DNA of 41,613 nt from the NCBI GenBank assembly GCA_913060655.1, contig CAJXTG010000013.1, forward strand, positions 1 to 41,613, given 5' to 3'. Position numbers and translations under genes: made by a program. Below the pieces are notes generated by a model that saw only the letters and a program-made list of their open reading frames with translations, did no database searches and had not been told where the DNA came from. Source of the DNA: an uncultured Nitriliruptoraceae bacterium. Its GTDB lineage: Bacteria; Actinomycetota; Nitriliruptoria; Nitriliruptorales; Nitriliruptoraceae. The number at the start of each line of letters is the position of its first letter. The first letter of the stretch is position 1. Positions 2,448 to 22,921 of this stretch are shown here, piece after piece.

Positions 2448-2517
2448 AGCGGCGCGGGGGCGCGCTCCGGGGTCGTGCGCCACCGCGCGGGGTCGGACCG
2501 ACGGCCGGACGGGGGGT

Positions 2518-2546
2518 TTGACACGGCCGCCCCGGCCCGTTCACCT
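2518..2546 (+). promoter_or_regulatory. Putative topA promoter
   Basis: A consensus TTGACA -35 (2518-2523) is followed after exactly 17 nt by TCACCT (2541-2546), a weak -10. It lies about 70 nt before the topA start codon. It is one of only two full TTGACA boxes I placed in the window. Confidence 0.45.
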
Positions 2547-2578
2547 TCCGCCGCCGTGCGGCCCTCCGCACCCCTGGC

Positions 2579-2600
2579 CCCTCGAGCCGACCCTCGAGGG
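2579..2600 (+). promoter_or_regulatory. Leader hairpin abutting the topA ribosome binding site
   Basis: CCCTCGAG (2579-2586) and CTCGAGGG (2593-2600) form a perfect 8-bp stem with a 6-nt loop. GGAG (2603-2606), the likely ribosome binding site, starts 2 nt later. The hairpin could modulate topA translation or mRNA stability; this is inferred from position only. Confidence 0.4.
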
Positions 2601-2615
2601 CCGGAGCAGCCACCT

Positions 2616-5294
2616 GTGAGCAACGACCTCGTCATCGTCGAGTCCCCGGCGAAGGCCCGGACGATCGAGCGCTACCTCGGTCCCGGCTACACGGTGCTCG
2701 CCTCCTACGGGCACGTCCGCGACCTGCCGCGCTCGAACTTCGCCATCGAGCTCGACGAGGAGGGGGGCGGCTGCAGCCTCGTCTACGAGGTCCCGGAGCG
2801 GTCCGCGAAGCACGTCGCCGCCCTGCGCAAGGCCGCCCGGTCCGCCGACACCGTCTGGCTCGCCCCCGACCTCGACCGGGAGGGCGAGGCGATCGCCTGG
2901 CATCTCGCGCAGGTCCTCGACCTCGACGTCGCCACCACCAACCGGGTCACCTTCGACGAGATCACCGAGTCGGCGATCCGTGACGCGTTCGCCGCCCCCC
3001 GCCACCTCGACCTCGCGCTCGTCGAGGCGCAGCAGGCGCGGCGCGCCGTCGACCGCATCGTCGGGTACCGGCTCTCGCCGGTGCTGTGGCGCACGGTCGC
3101 GTCCGGCATCTCCGCCGGACGGGTCCAGTCCGTCGCCCTCCGCATGATCGTCGACCGCGAGGACGAGATCCGCGCGTTCGTCCCCGAGACCTACTTCGAC
3201 CTCGCCGGCCTGTTCGGCCGCACCGCCGGCGAGCGCGACGTCCGCGCCCGGATGGTGCGCGTCGACGGGCTGCGCCTCGCCACCCCCAAGGACCTCGAGG
3301 GCAAGGACGACGCGGCCCGCGCGCAGCTGCGGGTCGTGCGCACCCAGGAGGAGGCCGACGCGCTCGTCGCGCGCGCCGAGCGGCTCGACTACGCCGTCAC
3401 CGAGGTCCGCCGGACCCAGCAGCAGCGCAACCCGAAGCCCCCGTTCAAGACGTCCACCCTGCAGGGTGAGGCGTCGCGCATCGGCTTCAGCGCCCGGCAG
3501 ACGATGGCCGTCGCCCAGCAGCTGTACGAGGGGATCGCGCTCGGCGGGGGCGAGCAGGTCGGCCTCATCACCTACATGCGGACGGACTCGCTCAACCTCT
3601 CCGACCAGGCGCTGACCGAGATCGGCGGGCTGGTGCGCTCCACCTACGGCGACCGGTACGCGCTCGACACGCCCCGCCGGGCGACGAACGCGACGAAGGG
3701 GGCGCAGGAGGCCCACGAGGCCATCCGCCCGACGTCGGTGCTGCGCACGCCCGCGTCGGTGCGCCCGCACCTGACGGGCGAGCAGGCGCGCCTGTACGAG
3801 CTCATCTGGTCGCGCACCGTCGCCACGCAGATGGCGCCGGCCGTGTTCGACCGCGTCGCCGCCGACGTGACCGGCTCCGACGCGGACGGCGACGTCGTGT
3901 TCCGCGTGACCGGACAGGTCGAACGCTTCGACGGGTTCCTGCGCGCCTACCGGATGGAGCGCGACGAGGACGACGCCGTCGAGGACGAGGCGGGGGACGG
4001 GCTGCCCGACCTCGAGGAGGGCCAGACGCTCGTCCTCGCCGACGTCGAGACGGAGTCGCACGAGACGTCCCCACCGCCCCGCTACAGCGAACGCACCCTC
4101 GTCGAGGCCCTCGAGGAGCATGGCATCGGCCGCCCGTCGACCTACGCGGCGATCATCTCGACGCTCGAGCAGCGCGCCTACGTCACCAAGGAGTCCCGAC
4201 GTTTCTTCCCGACGCCGCTCGGCGAGGTCGTCGTCGCCTTCCTGCTGCGCCACTTCCCCGAGATCGTCGACCTCGAGTTCACCGCCCGGATGGAGGGGAC
4301 GCTCGACGAGATCGCGGCCGGCGACGCCCCGTGGTGCGGCACCGTCACGTCGTTCCTCGACGAGGTCGACACGTGGGTGAGCGAGCGCAAGCCGGAACGG
4401 CCCCGCCTGCCGCTGCGCAACGACACGCCCTGCCCCGACTGCGGCGCCCCGATGGAACGCGTGTTCTCCGGCAAGGCCCGTGACTGGTTCGCCTCCTGCA
4501 GCCGCTGGCCCGACTGCGAGGGCACCCTGCCCCTCGAGCCGGACGGCACCGTCGGCGAGCGCCTCGACGTCGAGCCGGACGAGCAGGTCCCGTGCCCCGA
4601 GTGCGGCAAGCCCATGCAGCTGCGCGACGGCCGCTACGGCCGGTTCTACAGCTGCGTCGACTACCCGACGTGCAAGGGGGTGCGCAACCTGCAGCGGCGT
4701 GCGGTCTTCATGACCGCGGAGGGCGACGTCCGCCCGTTCCGGTCGGTGACCGACCCGCGCCACTACATGGAGCTGCGCACCTCCCGCTACGGCAAGCCGT
4801 TCCTCGGGACCACCGGCTACCCGGAGGACGTGTTCTCCGTGTGGTCGCTGCCGCTCGCGACGCCCTGCCCGGAGTGCGGCGCACCGCTGCGCCAGCCGCC
4901 CCGCAACCGCAAGGTCCCGACCGCGATCTGCGCGAACCCGACCGTCAACCACGTGTTCGAGCTGCCCACCTTCGACGTCCCGACCGTCGCGACGCAGACC
5001 GTCGTCGACGGCGTCCCCGCCTACGACCCCGAGCTCGGCGGCGAGGCGCTCGCGATGGACGACGTGCCCGGACCGATCCCGATGACGTACGTCGGCTCGC
5101 AGGACCCGCCGCCGCCACGCGGCAAGAAGGCGACGACCGCGCGTGCCGACGCCGGGGCCGCGAAGAAGGCGACGAAGAAGGCCACGAAGAAGACCGCGAA
5201 GAAGACCGCGAAGAAGGCGACGAAGAAGGCCGCCACGAAGACCGCGAAGAAGGCGACGAAGAAGGCGACGGCTCCGGCGCCCCGAGGGGCCTGA
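2616..5294 (+). CDS. topA: DNA topoisomerase I (type IA)
   Basis: An 892-aa enzyme that relaxes negatively supercoiled DNA by transient cleavage of one strand. The GTG at 2616 is chosen because the protein then begins with the Toprim strand (LVIVESPAKARTIERYLG) and GGAG lies 9 nt upstream. Visible landmarks are the Toprim acidic motif APDLDREGEA, the active-site tyrosine Tyr320 in GLITYMRTDS (E. coli Tyr319), and HEAIRPT. The C-terminus has two full tetracysteine zinc ribbons (CPDCG...SCSRWPDC and CPECG...SCVDYPTC), a degenerate third one, and a tail of KKAT/KKTA repeats. Mycobacterial TopA lacks the zinc ribbons, so this copy keeps the more general bacterial layout plus the actinobacterial basic tail. 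It heads a topA-tmk-holB cluster. Confidence 0.97.
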   Translation: MSNDLVIVESPAKARTIERYLGPGYTVLASYGHVRDLPRSNFAIELDEEGGGCSLVYEVPERSAKHVAALRKAARSADTVWLAPDLDREGEAIAWHLAQVLDLDVATTNRVTFDEITESAIRDAFAAPRHLDLALVEAQQARRAVDRIVGYRLSPVLWRTVASGISAGRVQSVALRMIVDREDEIRAFVPETYFDLAGLFGRTAGERDVRARMVRVDGLRLATPKDLEGKDDAARAQLRVVRTQEEADALVARAERLDYAVTEVRRTQQQRNPKPPFKTSTLQGEASRIGFSARQTMAVAQQLYEGIALGGGEQVGLITYMRTDSLNLSDQALTEIGGLVRSTYGDRYALDTPRRATNATKGAQEAHEAIRPTSVLRTPASVRPHLTGEQARLYELIWSRTVATQMAPAVFDRVAADVTGSDADGDVVFRVTGQVERFDGFLRAYRMERDEDDAVEDEAGDGLPDLEEGQTLVLADVETESHETSPPPRYSERTLVEALEEHGIGRPSTYAAIISTLEQRAYVTKESRRFFPTPLGEVVVAFLLRHFPEIVDLEFTARMEGTLDEIAAGDAPWCGTVTSFLDEVDTWVSERKPERPRLPLRNDTPCPDCGAPMERVFSGKARDWFASCSRWPDCEGTLPLEPDGTVGERLDVEPDEQVPCPECGKPMQLRDGRYGRFYSCVDYPTCKGVRNLQRRAVFMTAEGDVRPFRSVTDPRHYMELRTSRYGKPFLGTTGYPEDVFSVWSLPLATPCPECGAPLRQPPRNRKVPTAICANPTVNHVFELPTFDVPTVATQTVVDGVPAYDPELGGEALAMDDVPGPIPMTYVGSQDPPPPRGKKATTARADAGAAKKATKKATKKTAKKTAKKATKKAATKTAKKATKKATAPAPRGA
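5161..5273 (+). repeat. Lys-rich low-complexity repeat in the TopA tail
   Basis: Reiterated AAGAAGGCGACG-like units encode a run of KKAT and KKTA tetrapeptides. Basic tails of this kind are known in actinobacterial TopA, where they aid DNA binding. Being a DNA repeat, it may vary in length between strains. Confidence 0.85.
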
Positions 5295-12749: not shown

Positions 12750-14120
12750 TCAGACCCCCGCGGGCTCCGCGACACGGCCCGGCACGTCGCCCGGCAGGCA
12801 GAAGTCGTCGATGAGGACCACCTCGAACCCGCTGCGCACCAGGAACGACGCCGCGATCGTCGCCCGCGCCCCGGTGGCGCAGTAGACCCAGACCGGCCGG
12901 CCCCGCGGGACCTCCCCGATGCGCTCCGGCAGCTCGTGGAACGGGACGTGCACCGCGGCGTGGTGGTGGCCGCTCTCGAACTCCCACGTGTCGCGGACGT
13001 CGAGGATGGTGCGGGCGTCGTCGTCGACGAGGCTGAGCCCGTCGAAGCTCACGATCTCGATGGACCGCTCGAGCTCGTGGCCGGCGAACGTCCCCGACTG
13101 CGCGATGAGCCGGCCCTGGAGCCGGTCGTAGCCGATCCGGGCGAGCATGCGCTGCGCCTCGGCGAGCACCGTCGCGTCGTCGCCGACGAGCACGAGGTGC
13201 TCCTCGAACGGGACCATCCAGCCGAGGTAGTTCGGCAGGTCGTTGCGCAGCTCGGCGTTGATCGCCCCGGCGAGGAACGACGCGTTGAAGTCGCGCCGGT
13301 TGCGCAGGTCGATGACCCATGCGCCCTCGCGCAGCAGCGCGGCGACCCGCTCGAGGTCGAAGTCCTCCGGTGGGGTGTCGTCGAACGCCGCCGGGCCGAG
13401 CACGTTCGCGGGCGCCATGTGGCGGTAGTAGGTGGGGTAGGGGGTGAGCCCGCCGATGAGCTCGGTGAGGAAGTCCTCCTCCGACTTCACGAGCGCCGGG
13501 TTGTCGCCCCGCTCCGCGCCGACCGTCGAGGACTGCTTCGTCGCCTGCGTCGCCGAGCAGTGACTGCCGAAGCCGTGGGTCGGGTGCACGCCGGCGGTGT
13601 CGTCGACCTCGTCGGCGATCCGGCGCACCGAGTGGTACTGGCTGCGCGACAGCTCCATCGTCAGCTCCGGACCGATCAGGTCGGTCCGTCCGACGGTGCC
13701 GAACAGCATCGACCCGCCGGTGAACACGCCGACGGCACGGTCGTCGGCGTCCAGCAGGACGTAGGACAGGTGCGTGGGCGTGTGGCCGGGCGTGAGGAGG
13801 GCCCGCACCCGCATCGTGCCGCTCGTGAGGACGTCGCCGTCGGCCAGCCCGTGGCGGTCGAAGCGCACGTCGTCGTCCGCGTTCAGGCAGTAGGCGGCGT
13901 CGACCATGGACGCGAGCGCGTGCCCGCCGGTCACGTAGTCGTTGTGGACGTGGGTCTCGACGACGTGGGTGACGTCGAGGCCGTGCTCGTGCAGGACGTC
14001 GAGGACCCGGTCGATGTCGCGCTGCGGGTCGATGACGACCGCGCTCGACCCGTCATGGGCCACGTAGCTGCGGTCACCGAGCGACGGCGTCTCGATGGTC
14101 ACGATCTCGATGCTGCCCAT
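12750..14120 (-). CDS. MBL-fold hydrolase with two rhodanese domains (persulfide dioxygenase-like)
   Basis: A 456-aa protein with an N-terminal metallo-beta-lactamase fold (about 1-235) and two C-terminal rhodanese domains (about 250-345 and 360-450). It resembles ETHE1/CstB-type enzymes that oxidise persulfides to sulfite. Metal-site residues His57, His59, Asp61 (HVHNDY), His113 (PGHTPTH) and His182 (PTHGFGSHC) are present. The usual sixth position of HxHxDH is Tyr62, and the FTGD aspartate is Gly136 (FTGGSM), so the metal centre is atypical. The first rhodanese domain has no catalytic cysteine; the second has an active-site loop YCATGAR. ATG start with GAGGGGG upstream. Third gene of the dsrE2-tusA operon, supporting sulfur handling. 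Exact reaction uncertain. Confidence 0.88.
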   Translation of the reverse strand: MGSIEIVTIETPSLGDRSYVAHDGSSAVVIDPQRDIDRVLDVLHEHGLDVTHVVETHVHNDYVTGGHALASMVDAAYCLNADDDVRFDRHGLADGDVLTSGTMRVRALLTPGHTPTHLSYVLLDADDRAVGVFTGGSMLFGTVGRTDLIGPELTMELSRSQYHSVRRIADEVDDTAGVHPTHGFGSHCSATQATKQSSTVGAERGDNPALVKSEEDFLTELIGGLTPYPTYYRHMAPANVLGPAAFDDTPPEDFDLERVAALLREGAWVIDLRNRRDFNASFLAGAINAELRNDLPNYLGWMVPFEEHLVLVGDDATVLAEAQRMLARIGYDRLQGRLIAQSGTFAGHELERSIEIVSFDGLSLVDDDARTILDVRDTWEFESGHHHAAVHVPFHELPERIGEVPRGRPVWVYCATGARATIAASFLVRSGFEVVLIDDFCLPGDVPGRVAEPAGV

Positions 14121-14176: not shown

Positions 14177-14407
14177 TCAGGCCTTCTCGATCAGGAACGT
14201 GAAGCGGTCGCCGCCGTCGTTCTGCTCGACGAGCCGGTTCCCGGTCGACTGCGCCCAGGCGGGGATGTCCTGGAGCGAGCCACGGTCGGTCGAGATGACC
14301 TCGAGGACCTCGCCGGAGGCGAGCTGGTCGATGGCCTGGCGGGTGCGGACGACGGGCATCGGGCAGGCGAGGCCGCTGGCGTCCAGGGTCTGGGTGACGT
14401 CGGGCAT
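14177..14407 (-). CDS. tusA: TusA-family sulfur carrier protein
   Basis: A 76-aa protein of typical TusA length with the hallmark CPxP motif (Cys15, CPMP) in DASGLACPMPVVRTRQAI. TusA proteins carry sulfane sulfur as a cysteine persulfide between rhodaneses, DsrE-type proteins and downstream enzymes. A strong AGGAGGAG lies a few bases upstream of the ATG. Its position between dsrE2 and a rhodanese-containing gene matches the rhd-tusA-dsrE2 arrangement known from sulfur-oxidising bacteria such as Allochromatium, which points to sulfur oxidation rather than tRNA thiolation. Confidence 0.94.
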   Translation of the reverse strand: MPDVTQTLDASGLACPMPVVRTRQAIDQLASGEVLEVISTDRGSLQDIPAWAQSTGNRLVEQNDGGDRFTFLIEKA

Positions 14408-14420
14408 GGGTGCTCCTCCT

Positions 14421-14456
14421 GTGGTCGTGGTGCGTGGTCGTGGTGCGTGGTCGTGG
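14421..14456. repeat. 13-bp tandem repeat between tusA and dsrE2
   Basis: GTGGTCGTGGTGC is present twice in full (14421-14433, 14434-14446) and once in part (14447-14456). It fills the short spacer between the two genes and looks like slippage-type duplication; copy number may vary between strains. Confidence 0.85.
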
Positions 14457-14458
14457 GG

Positions 14459-14932
14459 TCAGATGAACAGGTTGATCTTCGAGCGCTGCATGTTCGACAT
14501 CGCCGCGGCCGCGCCGAGCGGTTCCTCGATGCCGTCGATGAGGTCCTCGCGCTTCAGCCCCATCAGGTCCATCGTCATCTGGCAGGGGGCCAGCTTCACG
14601 CCGAGCTCACGCGCCGTCTCGATGAGCTCGCTCGGCGGGGCGACCTTGTGGCGCTTCGCGATGCTCTTCATCATCTTCGGTCCGGCGCCGCCGAAGTTGA
14701 GGTGGCTGAGCCGCTCGTTGTTCACCGTCCCGAGCATCTTGGTCATCCAGTTGTCGCCGGTGACCTTGACCTCCGGGCGCTTCAGCGTGAACAGCCCCCA
14801 GAAGGTGCAGAACAGCGTGACCTCCATGCCGTAGGCGGCACCGGTCGTCGCGAGGATGTACTGCGGCCAGACCTTGTCGAGCTCGCCCGACCAGGCCACG
14901 ATCGTCATGCGCTCTACGCCGTCGTCCTCCAC
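14459..14932 (-). CDS. dsrE2: DsrE/DsrF-like protein (DsrE2 type)
   Basis: A 157-aa protein of the DsrE2/peroxiredoxin-like family. The N-terminal strand is MTIVAWSGELDKVWPQYILATTGAAYGMEV, followed by FCTFWGLFTL (Cys42) and the conserved LAPCQMTMDLMGL (Cys117), where the cysteine is the probable persulfide carrier. In sulfur oxidisers DsrE2 exchanges sulfur with TusA. First gene of the minus-strand operon. The GTG at 14930-14932 is used with a GGGGGG tract upstream; an internal ATG eight codons in (MTIVAW) is an alternative start. The TTGACA promoter at 15115-15120 would give a leader of about 150 nt containing palindromes. Confidence 0.9.
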   Translation of the reverse strand: MEDDGVERMTIVAWSGELDKVWPQYILATTGAAYGMEVTLFCTFWGLFTLKRPEVKVTGDNWMTKMLGTVNNERLSHLNFGGAGPKMMKSIAKRHKVAPPSELIETARELGVKLAPCQMTMDLMGLKREDLIDGIEEPLGAAAAMSNMQRSKINLFI

Positions 14933-14988
14933 GGTGTTCCCCCCTGCCCTTCCGGGCGGCCCTCACGGGCGTCGGCTGCGCGGGTCCC

Positions 14989-15008
14989 GACGCGGTCGCG
15001 ACCGCGTC
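14989..15008. promoter_or_regulatory. Perfect 20-bp palindrome upstream of dsrE2
   Basis: GACGCGGTCG followed directly by its reverse complement, with no centre spacer. It lies 57 bp before the dsrE2 start codon in the gap shared with the arsR gene. A dimeric regulator site is the natural reading, but no protein can be assigned from sequence. Confidence 0.6.
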
Positions 15009-15045
15009 CCCGGACTCCCGACCGGGCCCCGGACTCCCGACCGGG
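15008..15045. repeat. 19-bp perfect tandem duplication
   Basis: CCCCGGACTCCCGACCGGG occurs twice head to tail (15008-15026 and 15027-15045) in the dsrE2/arsR intergenic gap, directly beside the 20-bp palindrome. Each unit also has CCGG ends able to pair. It may be a duplicated binding site or a slippage product. Confidence 0.85.
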
Positions 15046-15091
15046 GTGGCGGCGGGCCCGGCGTTCGCGCAAGCCCGCAAGCAGCGCCGCT

Positions 15092-15120
15092 ATCGTGGTC
15101 GGCGCACGGGCCGCTGTCAA
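15092..15120 (-). promoter_or_regulatory. Putative promoter of the dsrE2-tusA-MBL operon
   Basis: On the minus strand a full consensus TTGACA (15120-15115) is followed after 17 nt by CACGAT (15097-15092), a partial -10. Transcription would start near 15085, leaving a leader of about 150 nt that includes the tandem duplication and the palindrome. Confidence 0.5.
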
Positions 15121-15128
15121 GGCTGCCC

Positions 15129-15148
15129 TACCGTGCCGGGGGGCACGG
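15129..15148 (+). promoter_or_regulatory. arsR -10 element overlapping an inverted repeat
   Basis: TACCGT (15129-15134) fits the TANNNT -10 form used elsewhere in the window. It overlaps a 7-bp inverted repeat CCGTGCC / GGCACGG (15131-15137 and 15142-15148). An autoregulatory operator for the ArsR protein would be expected at such a place. Confidence 0.4.
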
Positions 15149-15213
15149 CGCGGGTCCGGACGTCCGACCCGCGGGAGGCCGGCACCCGTCCGCGGGAGCC
15201 GAGGGAGAGGGCG

Positions 15214-15594
15214 ATGGTCCCCAGCGCCGCGACGACGCGTCCCGCCGACGGCCGGCGCACGCCGACCCCCGTCGACGACGCCCTGCGCGGGGAGCTCACC
15301 CAGCTCACCGCCACGCTGTGTCACGCGCTGAACGACCCCAAGCGGCTGCTGATCCTCCATGCGCTCGCCGAGGGGCCCGCGTCCGTCGGCGAGCTCGCCG
15401 AGACGGTCGGCGCCACGGTCGCCAACGTCTCCCAGCATCTCGCGGTCCTGCGGGAGCGCGGGCTCGTCGACTCCGAGCGGGACGGGCTGAACGTCATCTC
15501 GACGCTGCGCTACCCGGAGCTGATCGACGCGATCGACGCGCTGCGGGACATCCTCCGGACCGAGCTGCGCCGACGCAGCGAGCTGCTCGCGTGA
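15214..15594 (+). CDS. ArsR/SmtB-family winged-helix regulator
   Basis: A 126-aa protein starting at the ATG at 15214, with GGGAGAGG just upstream. The ArsR fold is clear: ALNDPKRLLILHALAEGPASVGELAETVGATVANVSQHLAVLRERGLV..., with recognition helix ATVANVSQHLAVL and a beta-wing. The arsenic-type ELCVCDL metal motif is absent. Only one cysteine (Cys36) is visible, so it is also not a classic two-cysteine persulfide sensor of the SqrR/BigR type. Its place at the centre of two sulfur operons, divergent from dsrE2 and upstream of the molybdoenzyme genes, suggests it controls them. The inducer is unknown. Confidence 0.92.
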   Translation: MVPSAATTRPADGRRTPTPVDDALRGELTQLTATLCHALNDPKRLLILHALAEGPASVGELAETVGATVANVSQHLAVLRERGLVDSERDGLNVISTLRYPELIDAIDALRDILRTELRRRSELLA

Positions 15595-15614
15595 TCGCAC
15601 GCTTGCGCGAGCGC

Positions 15615-15643
15615 TTGACCATCGCCCACGCGTGGGCGACGAT
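15615..15643 (+). promoter_or_regulatory. Promoter-like region with an 18-bp perfect palindrome
   Basis: TTGACC (15615-15620) and GACGAT (15638-15643), 17 nt apart, resemble -35 and weak -10 boxes. Nearly the whole spacer is the perfect palindrome TCGCCCACG/CGTGGGCGA (15622-15639). A repressor bound there would block polymerase, which is the usual arrangement for ArsR-type operators. It lies 28 bp after arsR and about 70 bp before the next gene. Confidence 0.5.
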
Positions 15644-15712
15644 GCACCAGGGAGCACGGGCGGCCGCCGGACCCCGGGGGGTGGGGCGGCACCCGTCGAC
15701 GAGGGAGTGGAC

Positions 15713-17302
15713 GTGACCGATCTCCGAACACCGCTGCCGTTCGCCGGCGCGACGTCCCACGAGGGCGACGGCGTCAAGTGGGCGAAGATCATCGACCAGG
15801 AGCGGTGCATCGGCTGCCACGCCTGCACGGTCGCCTGCAAGACGGAGAACGAGGTCCCCGTCGGCGTCTCCCGCACCTACGTGAAGTCCGTCGACGTCGG
15901 CCTGTTCCCCGAGGTGCGGCGCAACTTCCAGGTGACGCGCTGCAACCAGTGCGTCGACGCCCCGTGCGTCACGGCCTGCCCGACGAGCGCGATGTACAAG
16001 CGTGACGACGGCATCGTCGACTTCGAGAAGGACGCGTGCATCGGCTGCAAGGCGTGCATCGCCGCCTGCCCCTACGACGCGATCTTCATCAACCCCGAGG
16101 ACCACTCGGCCGAGAAGTGCAACTTCTGCGCCCACCGCATCGACATGGGGATGGAGCCGGCGTGCGTCGTCGTCTGCCCCGTCGAGGCGATCTTCGTCGG
16201 GGACATGAACGACCCCGGCTCGAAGGTCTCCCACATGGTCAACCGGGAGCCCGTCGCGGTGCGTCGCCCCGAGAAGGACACGAAGCCGAAGCTGTACTAC
16301 CGCGGTGCCCACGCCTCGACGCTCGACCCGCTCGCGGCCGAGCGGCCCACCGGCGACATCTTCGCGTGGGCCCAGCAGGCGCAGGAGGACGCGCACACCA
16401 TCAACTCGGGCTCCGAGCCGGGGACCGGCAGCTCCTCCGCCGCCGCGATCATCGCCTACGACGTGGGGCACTCCGTCCCCTGGGACTGGCGCGTCGGCCT
16501 GTACACGTGGACGAAGAGCATCTCGGCGGGCGTCTACCCCGTCGTCGCCGCCCTCGTCGTGCTCGGGCTGCTCGGCACCGACTCGCTGCTGTGGACCATC
16601 GTCACGCCCGTCATCGCCGGCGCGTTCCTCGCGCTCACCGGGGTCGTCCTCATCTGGGACCTCGAGCACCCGGCCCGCTTCTACTACCTGCTGACCCGAC
16701 CCCAGTGGAAGAGCTGGCTCGTCCGTGGTGCCGTCATCCTCGGCGTGTACGCGGCGGTGCTCGCGACCCACTTCGCCGCCGGCGTGTTCATCGGCGGTGA
16801 CGCCGGGGCGTCGCTGCGGTGGCTGGGGCTCCTCGGCGTCCCCGCCGCGGTGATGACCGGCGTGTACACCGCGTTCCTGTTCGCCCAGGCGAAGGCGCGC
16901 GACCTGTGGCAGAACCCGCTGCTGCCGCCGCACCTCGCCGTCCAGTCGGTGCTCGCCGGCTCGGCGACGCTCGTCCCCGTCGCGCTCGTCATGGGGCTCG
17001 GTGACGCCGTCCTCGACGCGCTCGCCTGGACGGTCGCGGTCAGCGCGGCCGTGCACCTGCTGATGATCCTCGGCGAGGTCACGCTGCCGCACCCGACCGC
17101 CCACGCGCGCACCGCCGCGCACAACCTCACGGGCGGCCGCTTCAAGGTGCCGTTCCGGGCCGGTGTCGCCCTCAGCGTCGTCGCGCTCGCCGCCCCCGTC
17201 GCCCCCGTCCTCGCGCTGCCCGCCGCGCTCGCGGGCCTCGTCGGCCTGTGGGCCTTCGAGCACGCCTACGTGCAGGCCGGCCAGTCCGTCCCGCTCGCCT
17301 GA
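15713..17302 (+). CDS. Fused 4Fe-4S electron-transfer and NrfD-type membrane subunit (SoeBC-like)
   Basis: A 529-aa fusion of two subunits that are usually separate. Residues about 20-200 carry 16 cysteines in four ferredoxin-type clusters (Cys32/35/38/42, 77/80/85/89, 109/112/115/119, 136/139/151/155). Residues about 265-529 contain about eight membrane helices with NrfD/PsrC features, including DLEHPARFYYLLTRPQW and the terminal AGQSVPL. It would pass electrons between the molybdoenzyme encoded next and the quinone pool. No signal peptide precedes the clusters, so they face the cytoplasm. The GTG at 15713 is chosen for GAGGGA 6 nt upstream; the frame is open to 15632 but that would place the operator inside the gene. 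38 bp from the next gene. Confidence 0.93.
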   Translation: MTDLRTPLPFAGATSHEGDGVKWAKIIDQERCIGCHACTVACKTENEVPVGVSRTYVKSVDVGLFPEVRRNFQVTRCNQCVDAPCVTACPTSAMYKRDDGIVDFEKDACIGCKACIAACPYDAIFINPEDHSAEKCNFCAHRIDMGMEPACVVVCPVEAIFVGDMNDPGSKVSHMVNREPVAVRRPEKDTKPKLYYRGAHASTLDPLAAERPTGDIFAWAQQAQEDAHTINSGSEPGTGSSSAAAIIAYDVGHSVPWDWRVGLYTWTKSISAGVYPVVAALVVLGLLGTDSLLWTIVTPVIAGAFLALTGVVLIWDLEHPARFYYLLTRPQWKSWLVRGAVILGVYAAVLATHFAAGVFIGGDAGASLRWLGLLGVPAAVMTGVYTAFLFAQAKARDLWQNPLLPPHLAVQSVLAGSATLVPVALVMGLGDAVLDALAWTVAVSAAVHLLMILGEVTLPHPTAHARTAAHNLTGGRFKVPFRAGVALSVVALAAPVAPVLALPAALAGLVGLWAFEHAYVQAGQSVPLA

Positions 17303-17340
17303 CCCGCACCGCCGGCACGACCAGCCACGAGGAGCAGCAG

Positions 17341-20289
17341 ATGGACGCAGACCTCGACCGCCTCGCCGAGCGGGTCGACGCCGCCCGCACCGCCACCGAG
17401 GCGCGCGGCGAGACCTTCTACGAGGGTCCGTCGCGCAGCCAGCTCGCCATGTTCCCGCCGAAGGAGCGCTGGGACGACTGGGTCGAGCTCGACAGCAAGG
17501 CGTGGCCGAAGCGGGTCGAGAAGCGGTTCATGCTCGTGCCGACGACCTGCTTCAACTGCGAGTCGGCGTGCGGGCTGCTCGCCTACGTCGACAAGGACAC
17601 CCTGCAGGTCCGCAAGTTCGAGGGCAACCCGGAGTCGCCCGGCTCGCGCGGCCGCAACTGCGCGAAGGGTCCGGCGGTCCACAACCAGATCACCGACCCC
17701 GACCGCATCCTCCACCCGATGAAGCGCGTCGGCGAGCGGGGCGCCGGCGGCTGGGAGCGGATCGGCTGGGACGAGGCGCTCGACGAGCTCGCGCTGCGCA
17801 TCCGGCGCGCCATCGAGGACGAGCGGCAGAACGAGGTGATGTACCACGTCGGGCGTCCCGGCGAGGACGGCTTCACCGAGCGGGTGCTCGCCGCGTGGGG
17901 CGTCGACGGGCACAACTCGCACACCAACGTGTGCTCCTCCGGCGGCCGGACCGGGTTCCAGTTCTGGACCGGCATCGACCGCCCGAGCCCCGACCACGCC
18001 AACGCCCGCACCATCCTGCTGATCTCCTCGCACCTCGAGACCGGCCACTACTTCAACCCGCACGCCCAGCGCATCATCGAGGCGAAGCACAACGGCGCGA
18101 AGCTGATCGTGATGGACGTGCGGCTGTCCAACACCGCCACGCACGCGACCGAGTGGGTCGCCCCGTACCCGGGCAGCGAGCCGGCGATCCTGCTGTCGAT
18201 CGCCCGCGAGCTGATCGTCAACGGCGAGTACGACCGTGACTACGTGCGCCGCTGGTGGAACTGGAAGCAGTACCTCACCGAGCAGCACCCCGACCGTCCG
18301 GCGACGTTCGAGACGTTCGAGGAGGTGCTGCGCGACCTGTACGCCGACTACACGTTCGCCTACGCCTCGCAGGAGTCCGGCGTGTCGGAGGCGCAGATCC
18401 GTGCGGTCCACGCGGCGGTCGCCGAGGCCGGGAACCGCCTCGCCGTGCACTCGTGGCGCTCCGCCGCCGCCGGCAACGAGGGCGGCTGGCAGGTGTCGCG
18501 CACGCTGTTCCTGCTGTCCGCACTCATGGGTGCGATCGCCGTGCCCGGCGGCACCTACCCGAACGCGTGGAACAAGTTCGTCGCCCGTCCCATCCACCTC
18601 CCGCACCACCCGGCCGCGTGGAACGAGCTGACCTACCCGCTCGAGTACCCGATCGCCCAGAACGAGCTGTCCTTCCTCCTCCCGCACTTCGTCGAGGAGG
18701 GGCGCGGGCTCATCGACGTGTACTTCACCCGCGTCTACAACCCGGTCTGGACGAACCCGGACGGCTTCAGCTGGATCGAGATGCTCACCGACCACAAGAA
18801 GGTCGGGCTGCACGTCGCGCTGACCCCGACGTGGAACGAGACGGCCTACTTCGCCGACCTCGTCCTCCCCATGGGCCTCTCCAGCGAACGCCACGACATC
18901 ACCAGCTACGAGCAGTACGACGCCCAGTGGCTGTCGTTCCGCCAGCCGGTGCTGCGCGCCGCGCGGGAGCGGCTCGGTGAGACGATCACCGACACCCGTC
19001 AGGTCAACCCCGGCGAGGTGTGGGAGGAGAACGAGTTCTGGATCGACCTGTCGTGGCGCATCGACCCCGACGGGTCGCTCGGCATCCGCCAGTACTTCGA
19101 GTCGAAGGCGGAGCCGGGCACCAAGCTCGGCGTCGACGAGTACTACGGCTGGATGTTCGAGCACTCGGTGCCCGGCCTGAAGGAGAAGGCCGCCGAGGAG
19201 GGGCTCACCGCCCTGGAGTACATGCGGCGCTACGGCTCCTACGAGATCCGCCGGGGCATCGGCCCGCTGCACGAGACGCCCGTCCCCGCCGAGGAGCACG
19301 CGACGGACCGTCGTGTCGACGAGTACGGCCGCGTCTACTCCCGCGACCCCGAGCCGCCGAAGGAGAACTTCGCGCCGACCGGTGCGCCCGACCCCGACCA
19401 CGAGGGGCGCCGCGCCGTCGGTGTCGAGGTCGACGGCGAGGTGCTGCGCGGCTTCCCGACCCCGTCCGGGCTGCTCGAGTTCTACTCGCGCACGCTCGTC
19501 GACTGGGGCTGGGGCGAGCACGCCATCCCCACCTACATCAAGAGCCACATCCACCCCGAGCACCTCGAGGCCGGGCAGGTGCCGCTCATCTCCACGTTCC
19601 GGCTCGTCACCCAGATCCACACGCGCAGCGCGAACTCGAAGTGGCTCGACGAGCTCTCGCACACCAACCCGCTGTGGATCCACCCGGTGCAGGCCGCCGA
19701 CGTCGGCGTCGTCACCGGCGACCTCGTCCGTGTCGAGACCGAGCTCGGCCACTTCGTCGTCAAGGCATGGGTCACCGAGGGCATCCGCCCCGGCGTCGTC
19801 GCCTGCTCCCACCACATGGGCCGCTGGCGGCTCACCGGCCACGAGCAGGCGCACCGCCTCAACACGACGACCGTCGCGCTCCACAACGACGGTTCGAAGT
19901 GGTCGATGAGCCCCGAGCAGTCGCACGGGGCGTTCGAGAGCAGCGACCCGGACACCTCGCGCATCTGGTGGACCGACGTGGGCGTGCACCAGAACATGAC
20001 GTTCGGCGTCCACCCCGACCCGGTGTCCGGCATGCACTGCTGGCACCAGGCGGTGCGGGTCGTCAAGGCGCAGGAGGGCGACCGTGCGGGCGACATCTTC
20101 GTCGACACCGACCGGTCCCGGGCCGTCTACCGGCAGTGGCTGGAGAAGACCCGCAGCGCCACGGTCGTCTCGCCGAACGGTGAGCGGCGGCCGCGCTGGC
20201 TGATCCGTCCGCTGAAGCCGACGTCCGACGCGTTCCGCATCGGCGGTCCGGTCGGCCGCAGGACCGACGACGCCCCCGTCTCCGGGTGA
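17341..20289 (+). CDS. Molybdopterin oxidoreductase catalytic subunit (SoeA/PsrA-like)
   Basis: A 982-aa member of the DMSO-reductase family. The N-terminal iron-sulfur motif is complete (Cys70, Cys73, Cys77, Cys107). The likely molybdenum ligand is Cys198 in NVCSSGGRTGF, as in polysulfide, thiosulfate and sulfite-type enzymes. The C-terminal molybdopterin-guanine-dinucleotide domain begins near TFRLVTQIHTRSANSKW. No twin-arginine signal is present, so the protein should stay in the cytoplasm. That favours a SoeABC-like sulfite dehydrogenase over periplasmic PsrA/PhsA. ATG with GAGGAG 6 nt upstream. Partners are the fused subunit upstream and the chaperone gene that overlaps its stop. The neighbouring sulfur-carrier operon supports sulfite or another sulfur substrate. 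Confidence 0.93.
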   Translation: MDADLDRLAERVDAARTATEARGETFYEGPSRSQLAMFPPKERWDDWVELDSKAWPKRVEKRFMLVPTTCFNCESACGLLAYVDKDTLQVRKFEGNPESPGSRGRNCAKGPAVHNQITDPDRILHPMKRVGERGAGGWERIGWDEALDELALRIRRAIEDERQNEVMYHVGRPGEDGFTERVLAAWGVDGHNSHTNVCSSGGRTGFQFWTGIDRPSPDHANARTILLISSHLETGHYFNPHAQRIIEAKHNGAKLIVMDVRLSNTATHATEWVAPYPGSEPAILLSIARELIVNGEYDRDYVRRWWNWKQYLTEQHPDRPATFETFEEVLRDLYADYTFAYASQESGVSEAQIRAVHAAVAEAGNRLAVHSWRSAAAGNEGGWQVSRTLFLLSALMGAIAVPGGTYPNAWNKFVARPIHLPHHPAAWNELTYPLEYPIAQNELSFLLPHFVEEGRGLIDVYFTRVYNPVWTNPDGFSWIEMLTDHKKVGLHVALTPTWNETAYFADLVLPMGLSSERHDITSYEQYDAQWLSFRQPVLRAARERLGETITDTRQVNPGEVWEENEFWIDLSWRIDPDGSLGIRQYFESKAEPGTKLGVDEYYGWMFEHSVPGLKEKAAEEGLTALEYMRRYGSYEIRRGIGPLHETPVPAEEHATDRRVDEYGRVYSRDPEPPKENFAPTGAPDPDHEGRRAVGVEVDGEVLRGFPTPSGLLEFYSRTLVDWGWGEHAIPTYIKSHIHPEHLEAGQVPLISTFRLVTQIHTRSANSKWLDELSHTNPLWIHPVQAADVGVVTGDLVRVETELGHFVVKAWVTEGIRPGVVACSHHMGRWRLTGHEQAHRLNTTTVALHNDGSKWSMSPEQSHGAFESSDPDTSRIWWTDVGVHQNMTFGVHPDPVSGMHCWHQAVRVVKAQEGDRAGDIFVDTDRSRAVYRQWLEKTRSATVVSPNGERRPRWLIRPLKPTSDAFRIGGPVGRRTDDAPVSG

Positions 20290-21188
20290 GCCGCACCGGA
20301 CTCCTCCGCGCCCTCGCCGACCTCGCCGCCAGGCCGCACGCCGGGTCGGCCGCCGTCGCCGAGGCGCTCGAGCTGCCGCGCCCACCGACGGCCGGTGAGC
20401 ACGCCGACCTGTTCGACTTCCAGGTCTACCCGTACGCGTCGGTCCACCTCGGCGCCGAGGGCATGCTCGGCGGGGACGCGCGCGACCGGGTCGCCGGCTT
20501 CCTCCGCGCCCTCGACGTCACCCCGCCGCCGGAGCCCGACCACCTCGTCGTGCTGCTGCACGCCTACGCCGACCTCACCGACCTGGCCGCATCCGGTGCA
20601 CCACGTGCCGACCACGCCCGCCGGGTGCTGCTGCACGAGCACCTCGGCAGCTGGGTGGGCCGCTTCCTCGCCCGCGTCGTCGAGCTCGGCGCGGACCCGC
20701 TGCGGACGTGGGCGCACCTGACCGTCCGAGCCCTCGCCGACGAGCTCGCCGTCTGCGGCCCGCCGCCCGGACCGCCGGCCGCGCTGCGGGACGCCGAGCC
20801 GCTGCCGGAGCCGGAGGACGCCACCGCCGCCGACTGGACCCAGGGGCTGCTCACCCCCGTCCGCAGCGGGCTGGTCCTCGCCCGTGCCGACCTGGCCCGG
20901 GCCGCCCACGAGCTCGGCCTCGGCACCCGCGTGGGCGAGCGCGCGTTCGTGCTGCGGGCCCTGCTTGACCAGGACGCCCGGGCGGTGCTCGGCTGGCTCG
21001 CCCGCGAGGCCGTCCGGCAGGCCGACGACCTCGGACCGGTCGCCGCCACCGGCGGGGAGCCCACCGCCCGCTGGTGGCGCGAACGGCTCGGCCACACCGC
21101 CACGATGATCGACCGGCGGCTCGGCGCGGGCGCAGGACCGTCCGGCGCGGAGTCCGGCGCGGAGTCCGGAGCGGAGGAGGACCGATGA
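20286..21188 (+). CDS. TorD/DmsD-family molybdoenzyme chaperone
   Basis: A 300-aa helical protein with the family core QVYPYASVHLGAEGMLGGDARDRV and HLVVLLHAYADLTDLAA. Such chaperones bind the apo-molybdoenzyme and assist cofactor insertion in the cytoplasm. The GTG start overlaps the oxidoreductase stop in a GTGA, so translation is probably coupled to its client. It is longer than typical TorD (about 200 aa), with an extra C-terminal half containing a second helical segment and an acidic tail made of three 12-nt repeats (GAES, GAES, GAEE). The client is almost certainly the upstream catalytic subunit. It overlaps the transporter gene downstream by 4 bp. Confidence 0.9.
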   Translation: MSRTGLLRALADLAARPHAGSAAVAEALELPRPPTAGEHADLFDFQVYPYASVHLGAEGMLGGDARDRVAGFLRALDVTPPPEPDHLVVLLHAYADLTDLAASGAPRADHARRVLLHEHLGSWVGRFLARVVELGADPLRTWAHLTVRALADELAVCGPPPGPPAALRDAEPLPEPEDATAADWTQGLLTPVRSGLVLARADLARAAHELGLGTRVGERAFVLRALLDQDARAVLGWLAREAVRQADDLGPVAATGGEPTARWWRERLGHTATMIDRRLGAGAGPSGAESGAESGAEEDR

Positions 21189-22921
21189 CCAGCAGCAAGC
21201 CGGCCGCGCGTGCGCAGGGGCTCCTCCGCCTGCCCGACGGCTACGACCGGACCGGGGTCCGCGCCGACGTCGTCGCCGGCCTGTCGCTCGTCGTCGTCCT
21301 CATCCCCCAGGCGATGGCGTTCTCCGCGCTCGTCGGCGTCCCCCCCGTCGCGGGCCTGTACGCCGCGCTCGTGTCGCTGCTCGCCTACGGGCTGCTCGGC
21401 TCCAGCGCCGGCCTGTCGTTCGGACCGATCGCCGTCGTGTCGCTGCTCAGCGGCGCGGCCGTCGCCCCGCTCGCGGACGGCGACGTGGAACGCGCCCTCG
21501 CCCTCGTCGCCCTGCTCGCCGGGATGGTCGGCGTCGTCCACCTGGCGCTGGGGCTGCTGCGCGCCGGTGCGATCGTCGACGTCATCTCCTACCCGGTGCT
21601 GCTCGGGTTCACCGCCGGCGCGGGCTTCACGATCGCGGCGAGCCAGCTGCGCGATCTGCTCGGCATCACCGCGTCCGGGTCGGACCGGTTCGTCGAGGCC
21701 GTCGCGATCGTCGTGCCCGCCCTCGGGGAGCTCCATCCGCTCACCGCCGGCATCGGCGTCGTGTCGCTCGTGCTGCTGCTCGTCACCCGGCGCGTGCGAC
21801 CGAACTTCCCGACCGTGCTCGTGCTCGCGATCGTCGCCGTCCTCGCGTCCGTCGCGTTCGGCCTGGAGGCGCGCGGCGTCCGCATCGTCGGCGACATCCC
21901 GTCCGGGTTCCCCGTGCCGGCCGTGCCGGCCGTCACCGTCGCCGACGCGCAGGGCCTGCTCGCCCCCGCTCTCGCCATCGCCCTCGTCGGCTACGCGCAG
22001 ACCATCGCCGTGGGCAAGGCGATCGCCGCGCGGACCCGCCAGCGGATCGACGCGAACCGGGAGTTCCGCGCGTCGGGCGTCGCCAACGTCCTGTCCGGAC
22101 TGTTCGGCGGGTTCCCCACGTCCGGCAGCCTGTCGCTGTCGTCGGTGCTCGGTGCCGCGGGCGCGCGCTCCCGGGTCGCCCTCGGGGTCGCGGCCGCCGC
22201 GCTCGGCCTCGTCCTGCTGCTGCTCACCCCGCTGCTCGAACCGCTGCCGCGCGTCATCCTCGCCGCGCTCATCATGGCGGCGGTCGTCAGCTTCATCGAC
22301 GTGCCCGGGTTCCTCGAGCTGTTCCGCATCGACCGCGGCGAGGGCGCCGTCGCCGCCGTGACGCTCGGGGCGGCACTCACGCTCGGCCTGCTCGAGGGGC
22401 TCGCCCTCGGGGTCGGCACGAACCTCGCCATCCACGTCGTGCGCCGCATGCGCCCCGGGATCGTCGAGCTCGGCCGGGTCGAGGGGACCGTGCAGTACCG
22501 CGACCGCACCCGCTTCCCCGCCGTCGTCGCCGACGACGGGGCGATCGTGCGCCTCGAGGGCTCGATCGACTTCCTCGACGCGAGCGCCGTCGGCACCCAG
22601 CTGCGACGGCTCGTCGCCGCCCGCCCCGAGCTGCGCTGGCTCGTGATCGACGCGTCCGGGGTCACCGAGCTCGACGCGACCGGGCTGCGCATGCTGTCCG
22701 GCCTCGCCGAGGGGTTCGCCGCCGCCGGGGTCGAGCTGCGGCTCGTGTCGCTGCGCGGCGCCCTCCGTGACGTCGTCGAACGGGCCGGTGCCCGCGAGCT
22801 GCTGCTCGAACGCTGCCACCGCGCCTCGCTCGCGGAGGCGCTCGCGTCCGTCGGCGTCGGTGCGGACGATCCGCTGCGTGCGCCGACGCCGGACGAGCAG
22901 GCGCCCACGACGCTGCCGTGA
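21185..22921 (+). CDS. SulP-family anion (sulfate) transporter with STAS domain
   Basis: A 578-aa SLC26/SulP protein. The N-terminal signature VVAGLSLVVVLIPQAMAFSALVGVPPVAGLYAALV is followed by multiple membrane helices to about residue 425. The cytoplasmic STAS domain (about 445-555) includes IDASGVTELDATGLRML. Family members move sulfate, bicarbonate or other anions. The ATG overlaps the chaperone stop (ATGA), tying it to the molybdoenzyme operon, so sulfate (the product of sulfite oxidation) is the best guess. Whether it would act in uptake or efflux cannot be read from sequence, and bicarbonate remains possible. It is the last gene of the operon. Confidence 0.93.
   Translation: MTSSKPAARAQGLLRLPDGYDRTGVRADVVAGLSLVVVLIPQAMAFSALVGVPPVAGLYAALVSLLAYGLLGSSAGLSFGPIAVVSLLSGAAVAPLADGDVERALALVALLAGMVGVVHLALGLLRAGAIVDVISYPVLLGFTAGAGFTIAASQLRDLLGITASGSDRFVEAVAIVVPALGELHPLTAGIGVVSLVLLLVTRRVRPNFPTVLVLAIVAVLASVAFGLEARGVRIVGDIPSGFPVPAVPAVTVADAQGLLAPALAIALVGYAQTIAVGKAIAARTRQRIDANREFRASGVANVLSGLFGGFPTSGSLSLSSVLGAAGARSRVALGVAAAALGLVLLLLTPLLEPLPRVILAALIMAAVVSFIDVPGFLELFRIDRGEGAVAAVTLGAALTLGLLEGLALGVGTNLAIHVVRRMRPGIVELGRVEGTVQYRDRTRFPAVVADDGAIVRLEGSIDFLDASAVGTQLRRLVAARPELRWLVIDASGVTELDATGLRMLSGLAEGFAAAGVELRLVSLRGALRDVVERAGARELLLERCHRASLAEALASVGVGADDPLRAPTPDEQAPTTLP

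Follow-up and report, generated by a model that had tools for sequence, protein, structure and literature searches.

Introduction

In hETHE1, AcPDO, PaPDO and Beggiatoa PDO, iron is bound within an MBL fold by two His and one Asp. The ligands in AcPDO are H57, H113 and D130, and the D130A, D130E and D130H variants of this enzyme kept 0.5-2% of the activity, with a low iron content in D130H and D130A, according to the available text of the report (PMC6060420). The activity given for AcPDO is 122 U/mg. Position 117 (C117 in AcPDO, S116 in MxPDO) is tied in the available descriptions to the second sphere around D129/130. In Beggiatoa PDO the corresponding His117 is described as the sole second-sphere residue that differs from the other type I enzymes, and as displacing a water. 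Type III enzymes have Phe or Tyr at the last position of the HxHxDH motif (PMC6060420, available text).

A further enzyme, ScPDO (SCO0618) of S. coelicolor, was purified and showed O2 uptake with glutathione persulfide (GSSH), with a Vmax of 1.19 μmol O2/min/mg and a Km of about 94 μM GSSH. Deletion of SCO0618 raised the cellular sulfane sulfur from 6.4 to 16.1 μM/OD, and complementation restored it (PMC7533328, available text).

The gene and its product

The window (the whole stretch of DNA that was analysed, 41,613 nucleotides from an uncultured Nitriliruptoraceae bacterium) contains a gene whose product, from here on the window protein, is predicted to belong to this group of enzymes. The gene and the relevant parts of its product are as follows.

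12750..14120, (-) strand: predicted Asp-less type III-like persulfide dioxygenase-sulfurtransferase, 456 aa, with MBL, pseudo-rhodanese and rhodanese domains
13935..13952, (-) strand: HVHNDY motif, residues 57-62; H57 is an expected iron ligand, and Tyr62 stands instead of the His of types I/II
13782..13784, (-) strand: codon of His113, an expected iron ligand
13770..13772, (-) strand: codon of His117, the proposed substitute ligand, a second-shell position in published structures
13713..13715, (-) strand: codon (GGG) of Gly136, which stands where ETHE1 and AcPDO have their Asp ligand (Asp154 and Asp130, respectively)
13557..13577, (-) strand: HGFGSHC, residues 182-188, with His182 in the second shell and an invariant Cys188
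13092..13358, (-) strand: middle rhodanese-like domain without active-site Cys, approximately residues 255-343
12810..13028, (-) strand: C-terminal rhodanese domain with the CATGAR loop, residues 365-437, including Cys414

The motifs TPGHT, FTGGSM, THGFGSHC and CATGAR were located at residues 110-114, 133-138, 181-188 and 414-419, respectively. These positions confirmed all the residues that a sequence-only reading of the gene had named, namely HVHNDY with Tyr62, Gly136 within FTGGSM, and CATGAR. The same reading was right in describing a first rhodanese domain without Cys and a second one with CATGAR, as no Cys is present in the active-site loop of the middle domain and Cys414 lies in the C-terminal one. 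Pfam recognised the C-terminal domain strongly (Rhodanese PF00581, residues 365-437), and the MBL domain slightly below the cut-off. Both iron-ligand His of the 2-His-1-carboxylate site of ETHE1 are therefore present in the window protein (H57 and H113), and the Asp ligand is absent.

A sequence search of solved structures gave full-length matches to Alicyclobacillus 3tp9 (E 5e-54) and S. aureus CstB 3r2u (E 2e-43). The AlphaFold2 model of the window protein, built with 46 sequences (pLDDT 92.8, pTM 0.90), was superimposed on 3tp9 with Z 43.1 over 445 residues, on 3r2u with Z 38.1 and on hETHE1 4chl with Z 29.9. The MBL fold and the equivalents of His57 and His113 are common to the window protein and to hETHE1, AcPDO, PaPDO and Beggiatoa PDO; however, these enzymes retain the Asp, their HxHxDH motif ends in His and they have no C-terminal domains of the CstB type. 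CstB and 3tp9 are closer, sharing with the window protein the fold, the HxHxD-aromatic motif and the three-domain layout of type III enzymes, in which an MBL domain is followed by a Cys-less rhodanese-like domain and a C-terminal rhodanese domain with Cys. The aromatic residue is Tyr62 in HVHNDY of the window protein and Phe in both structures, and position 117 is Ser in CstB and His in 3tp9 and the window protein.

Four oddities had been pointed out in this protein from its sequence. Two of them, Tyr62 and the Cys-less middle domain, turned out to be ordinary for the CstB layout, because 3tp9 and CstB have Phe at the former position and no Cys in the latter; the Asp-to-Gly change is the unusual one. 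In fact, the alignment with CstB that had been called for located the real departure at Gly136, since CstB and 3tp9 both keep the Asp (FSGD). Tyr62 was accordingly discarded as a novelty, Phe or Tyr in type III enzymes being already in print (PMC6060420, available text).

The genomic context

A divergent sulfur cluster occupies positions 14177-22918 of the window, with DsrE2, TusA and the dioxygenase genes pointing one way and, on the opposite arm, genes for an ArsR regulator, a ferredoxin-NrfD fusion, a molybdoenzyme, a NarJ-like chaperone and a SulP permease.

14177..14407, (-) strand: TusA sulfur carrier, 76 aa (PF01206), the next gene upstream of that for the dioxygenase, in the same orientation
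14459..14932, (-) strand: DsrE2-like sulfur carrier, 157 aa (PF13686), upstream on the same strand
15046..15594, (+) strand: divergent ArsR-family regulator, true start probably downstream of 15046; its BigR-like score is weak, below the cut-off
15632..17302, (+) strand: 4Fe-4S ferredoxin fused to an NrfD-type membrane subunit, start uncertain
17341..20289, (+) strand: molybdopterin oxidoreductase, thiosulfate/polysulfide-reductase-like, a possible sulfite dehydrogenase

The best solved match of the molybdoenzyme, which may be SoeA-like, was thiosulfate reductase 2vpw. The cluster may represent a full route from sulfane sulfur through sulfite to sulfate in a 1.67-Mb genome. Sulfane sulfur would be supplied probably by TusA/DsrE2 or by a low-molecular-weight thiol, together with the C-terminal rhodanese domain (Cys414), the dioxygenase would oxidise it to sulfite, and the adjacent molybdoenzyme would perhaps carry the oxidation of sulfite further.

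Genome contigs were scanned with patterns taken from the window protein, which biases the resulting 80 loci (nearly all Actinomycetota by record title) towards its own kind and makes them no gauge of the rarity of Asp-less proteins elsewhere. A molybdoenzyme gene was close to the dioxygenase gene in six of these loci (L007, L008, L016, L027, L049 and L052), and a seventh, L012, gave a weak molybdoenzyme match that was 24% identical. TauE-like permeases were found near the Gly136 gene in 44 of the 80 loci, rhodaneses in 37 and CsoR-like repressors in 31, one representative of each having been confirmed by Pfam. The order DsrE2-TusA-dioxygenase was common to the window, L007 and L008. The dioxygenases of these three are the only ones with His187, that is with GSHC instead of GSFC (13557-13562, residues 187-188).

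A characterised relative with Gly136

The printed composition of SCO0618 (PMC7560446, available text) served as reference for finding the sequence of ScPDO among the fetched Streptomyces homologues. The 461-aa, GTG-start protein of locus L259 had a composition distance of 0, against 10 for the runner-up. Its pI (5.27), GRAVY (0.053) and order-dependent instability index (32.67) were all equal to the printed values, and its mass was 48215.5 as compared to 48216.15. The L259 neighbourhood, with TauE, a rhodanese and a CsoR-type repressor having Cys37 and Cys66, was that described for SCO0619-0621. This protein reads HVHNDY, FTGG and PTHGFGSFC.

ScPDO shared 47% identity with the window protein over 436 aa, and every site residue was aligned. 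They share the Tyr, Gly136, His117, the Cys-less middle domain and the C-terminal rhodanese domain, and belong to the same clade of the tree. They differ in their neighbours, which are CsoR, TauE and rhodanese genes in one case and the TusA, DsrE2 and molybdoenzyme cluster in the other, and at residue 187, Phe in ScPDO and His in the window protein. Since ScPDO has Gly136 and consumes O2 with GSSH, an enzyme without the Asp can still be a dioxygenase, and it is very likely that the window protein has kept the persulfide dioxygenase function.

The words iron and metal are absent from the main text of the ScPDO paper, and its assay section, in the available text, has no inactive-mutant control (PMC7533328). 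Among the listings and paper passages that a literature search covered, there was no printed remark on a missing Asp in such enzymes.

The rate of ScPDO is about 100 times lower than that of AcPDO (1.19 vs. 122 U/mg), the assays having been run at 25 and 40 degrees, respectively, and perhaps with the wrong thiol in the former case. Actinobacteria use mycothiol, whereas the ScPDO assay used GSSH. The low rate may also denote a crippled site, and loss of the Asp may account for it.

Spread and conservation of Gly136

In a first alignment Gly136 was present in 91 of 93 rows, among which the window protein was counted twice. The recurrence of Gly136 in these rows and in the 79%-identical L007 protein excludes chance or a sequencing slip. 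The final count comprised 298 distinct rows, after 21 duplicates among 321 had been left out together with a GloB-like gene of the same genome (L004/L006) and L310_2, which belongs to another family; position 136 was Gly in 262 rows, Asp in 33 and His in 3 (L306-L308, counted apart from the other two groups). Additional Asp136 rows were drawn from plasmid hits and from 30 genomes of Streptomyces, the choice being made by hand and not at random. A sequencing error or a pseudogene was ruled out by the intact frame and by the occurrence of Gly136 in 262 distinct sequences.

The Gly136 rows were from actinobacterial genomes or draws, except L298 (a Comamonadaceae plasmid) and, going by their record titles, L029 (a Spirochaetaceae MAG) and L031 (an unverified Bacillus record). 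In the tree, the actinobacterial Gly136 rows grouped together with full support. Throughout a large clade of actinobacteria the Asp-to-Gly change is fixed. Of 198 Actinomycetota genomes that were drawn, 24 (the one studied here among them) had a close relative at E 1e-90, a figure that reflects similarity only and not the motif at 136. The genome of the window also holds a second, 53% identical Gly136 copy (L002, contig C6), whose nearest relative is the Nitriliruptoraceae protein L022. A second and a third subgroup of Gly136 proteins, from Streptomyces or other actinobacteria, were also noted, the second reading HLHADF and PTHGAGSFC (L226, L230-L235, L297 and L023) and the third HVHNDY and PTHGAGSSC (L227-L229).

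H57, H59, D61, H113, H117, Q161, H182, C188 and C414 were invariant in the 262 Gly136 rows, and residue 181 was Thr in 254 and Ser in 8 of them. In the Asp136 rows residue 117 was Ser (26/33) or His (7/33), and residue 161 was Leu or Met in all 33.

These counts bear on the proposal, made from the sequence, that the protein is chiefly a rhodanese. The MBL domain would then be a scaffold and sulfur would be transferred through Cys414, in keeping with the missing Asp ligand, with the TusA and DsrE2 genes that adjoin the dioxygenase gene and with Cys414 and Arg419, both invariant in 262/262 Gly136 rows. However, the metal-site residues H57, H59, D61, H113 and H182 are just as invariant (262/262), and ScPDO, with the same Gly136, was measured as a dioxygenase that uses O2 with GSSH and whose loss raises sulfane sulfur. 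This evidence does not support the proposal, and we give it a slim chance.

A candidate for the third ligand

The accompanying suggestion that the metal may be bound differently gained inferential support: the Asp ligand is gone, and His117 is the only candidate to replace it that is invariant whenever residue 136 is Gly. The model pairs strands 118-123 and 129-135 as a hairpin, and strand-end arithmetic (register sum about 253) puts residue 117 opposite 135/136. Its second-shell place and this hairpin position make His117 the best-placed substitute. The same residue also occurs with Asp136, in 7 of 33 rows, in 3tp9 and in Beggiatoa PDO; it is therefore not peculiar to Gly136 proteins, and could be a structural residue of earlier date. 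Also against a ligand swap are AcPDO D130H, in which a His at the place of the Asp gave poor activity and low iron, and the low rate of ScPDO.

We lean, by a modest degree, to the reading that the window protein is a working persulfide dioxygenase-sulfurtransferase with the CstB layout, its third ligand replaced, most likely by His117. The carboxylate of the 2-His-1-Asp site would have been lost with the change to Gly136, and His117, lying across from 136 on the adjacent strand, would have moved from the second shell into the vacated place. Iron would then most likely be held by His57, His113 and His117, all invariant in 262/262 distinct Gly136 rows, as in the 3-His site of cysteine dioxygenase. 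The latter is a cupin of unrelated fold and the likeness, 3-His iron ligation in a sulfur dioxygenase, is an analogy only, being a proposal for the window protein. The sequence features and their conservation across the clade were observed, and the activity of a Gly136 relative is published; which metal is bound, that His117 is a ligand, what carries the substrate and what the molybdoenzyme does are inferred.

Alternatively, His57 and His113 alone might hold the iron, with water or substrate at the place of the Asp and His117 remaining in the second shell. Such a site would agree with the 0.5-2% activity and low iron of AcPDO D130A, with a Vmax of ScPDO that relative to AcPDO is of the same order as this residual activity, and with the His117 of Beggiatoa PDO, a second-shell residue and not a ligand in the available description. 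Gln161 and Thr/Ser181, both linked to Gly136 in 262/262 rows, also suggest a reorganised second shell. A site of this kind leaves unexplained why His117 is present in 262/262 Gly136 rows, as compared to Ser in 26/33 Asp136 rows, and we regard it as unlikely, if worth keeping in mind.

It is improbable that the metal has shifted to the second-site arrangement of the MBL fold, involving His182 and/or Asp61, or is Zn/Mn, with dioxygenase activity becoming secondary. Asp61 and His182 are invariant in the Gly136 rows, and glyoxalase II and B1 lactamases bind zinc with the equivalent residues; yet site 2 of glyoxalase II also involves a bridging Asp and the His that is Tyr62 here (PMC4383860, available text), and both the deletion phenotype and the O2 uptake of ScPDO indicate persulfide oxidation.

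For the clade as a whole, a natural 3-His iron dioxygenase site, formed by exchanging the MBL-fold carboxylate for a second-shell His, is a serious possibility to which we give somewhat less than an even chance. This clade already has a characterised enzyme, with a role shown in the control of sulfane sulfur in Streptomyces, and the change goes unremarked in the available text on it. Mutagenesis of AcPDO made the iron ligands look almost irreplaceable (PMC6060420, available text), and a widespread natural clade manages without the Asp. This clade makes it possible to test directly whether a metal ligand can be exchanged within the MBL fold, and loss of a motif alone is a poor ground for calling such proteins inactive.

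Origin of the Asp loss

The Comamonadaceae plasmid protein L298 (positions 2474-3913 of its record) has Gly136, His117, Gln161 and Thr181, and its rhodanese half groups with Asp136 proteins. In the whole-protein tree it was placed among Asp136/His117 rows (100/98), a position that would imply a second loss, but a single origin of Gly136 was not rejected (AU p 0.084). A tree of the MBL half, from which the trait columns had been removed, gave a support of 30, too low to place L298, and in the tree of the rhodanese half a single origin was rejected (p 0.001). The conflict between the two half-protein trees suggests that L298 may be a domain swap; convergent loss of the Asp may also have produced it. 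Two independent Asp-to-Gly events were dropped as proof because of the AU value and of this conflict. As read from these trees, the pairing of Gly136 with His117 has one or at most two origins, and hence represents few independent events.

Another natural change at the same ligand site was observed in the three His136 rows, which are small, plasmid-borne MBL proteins of Thiothrix, Acidiphilium and Burkholderia: His takes the position of the Asp (GHT), and Ala replaces His182.
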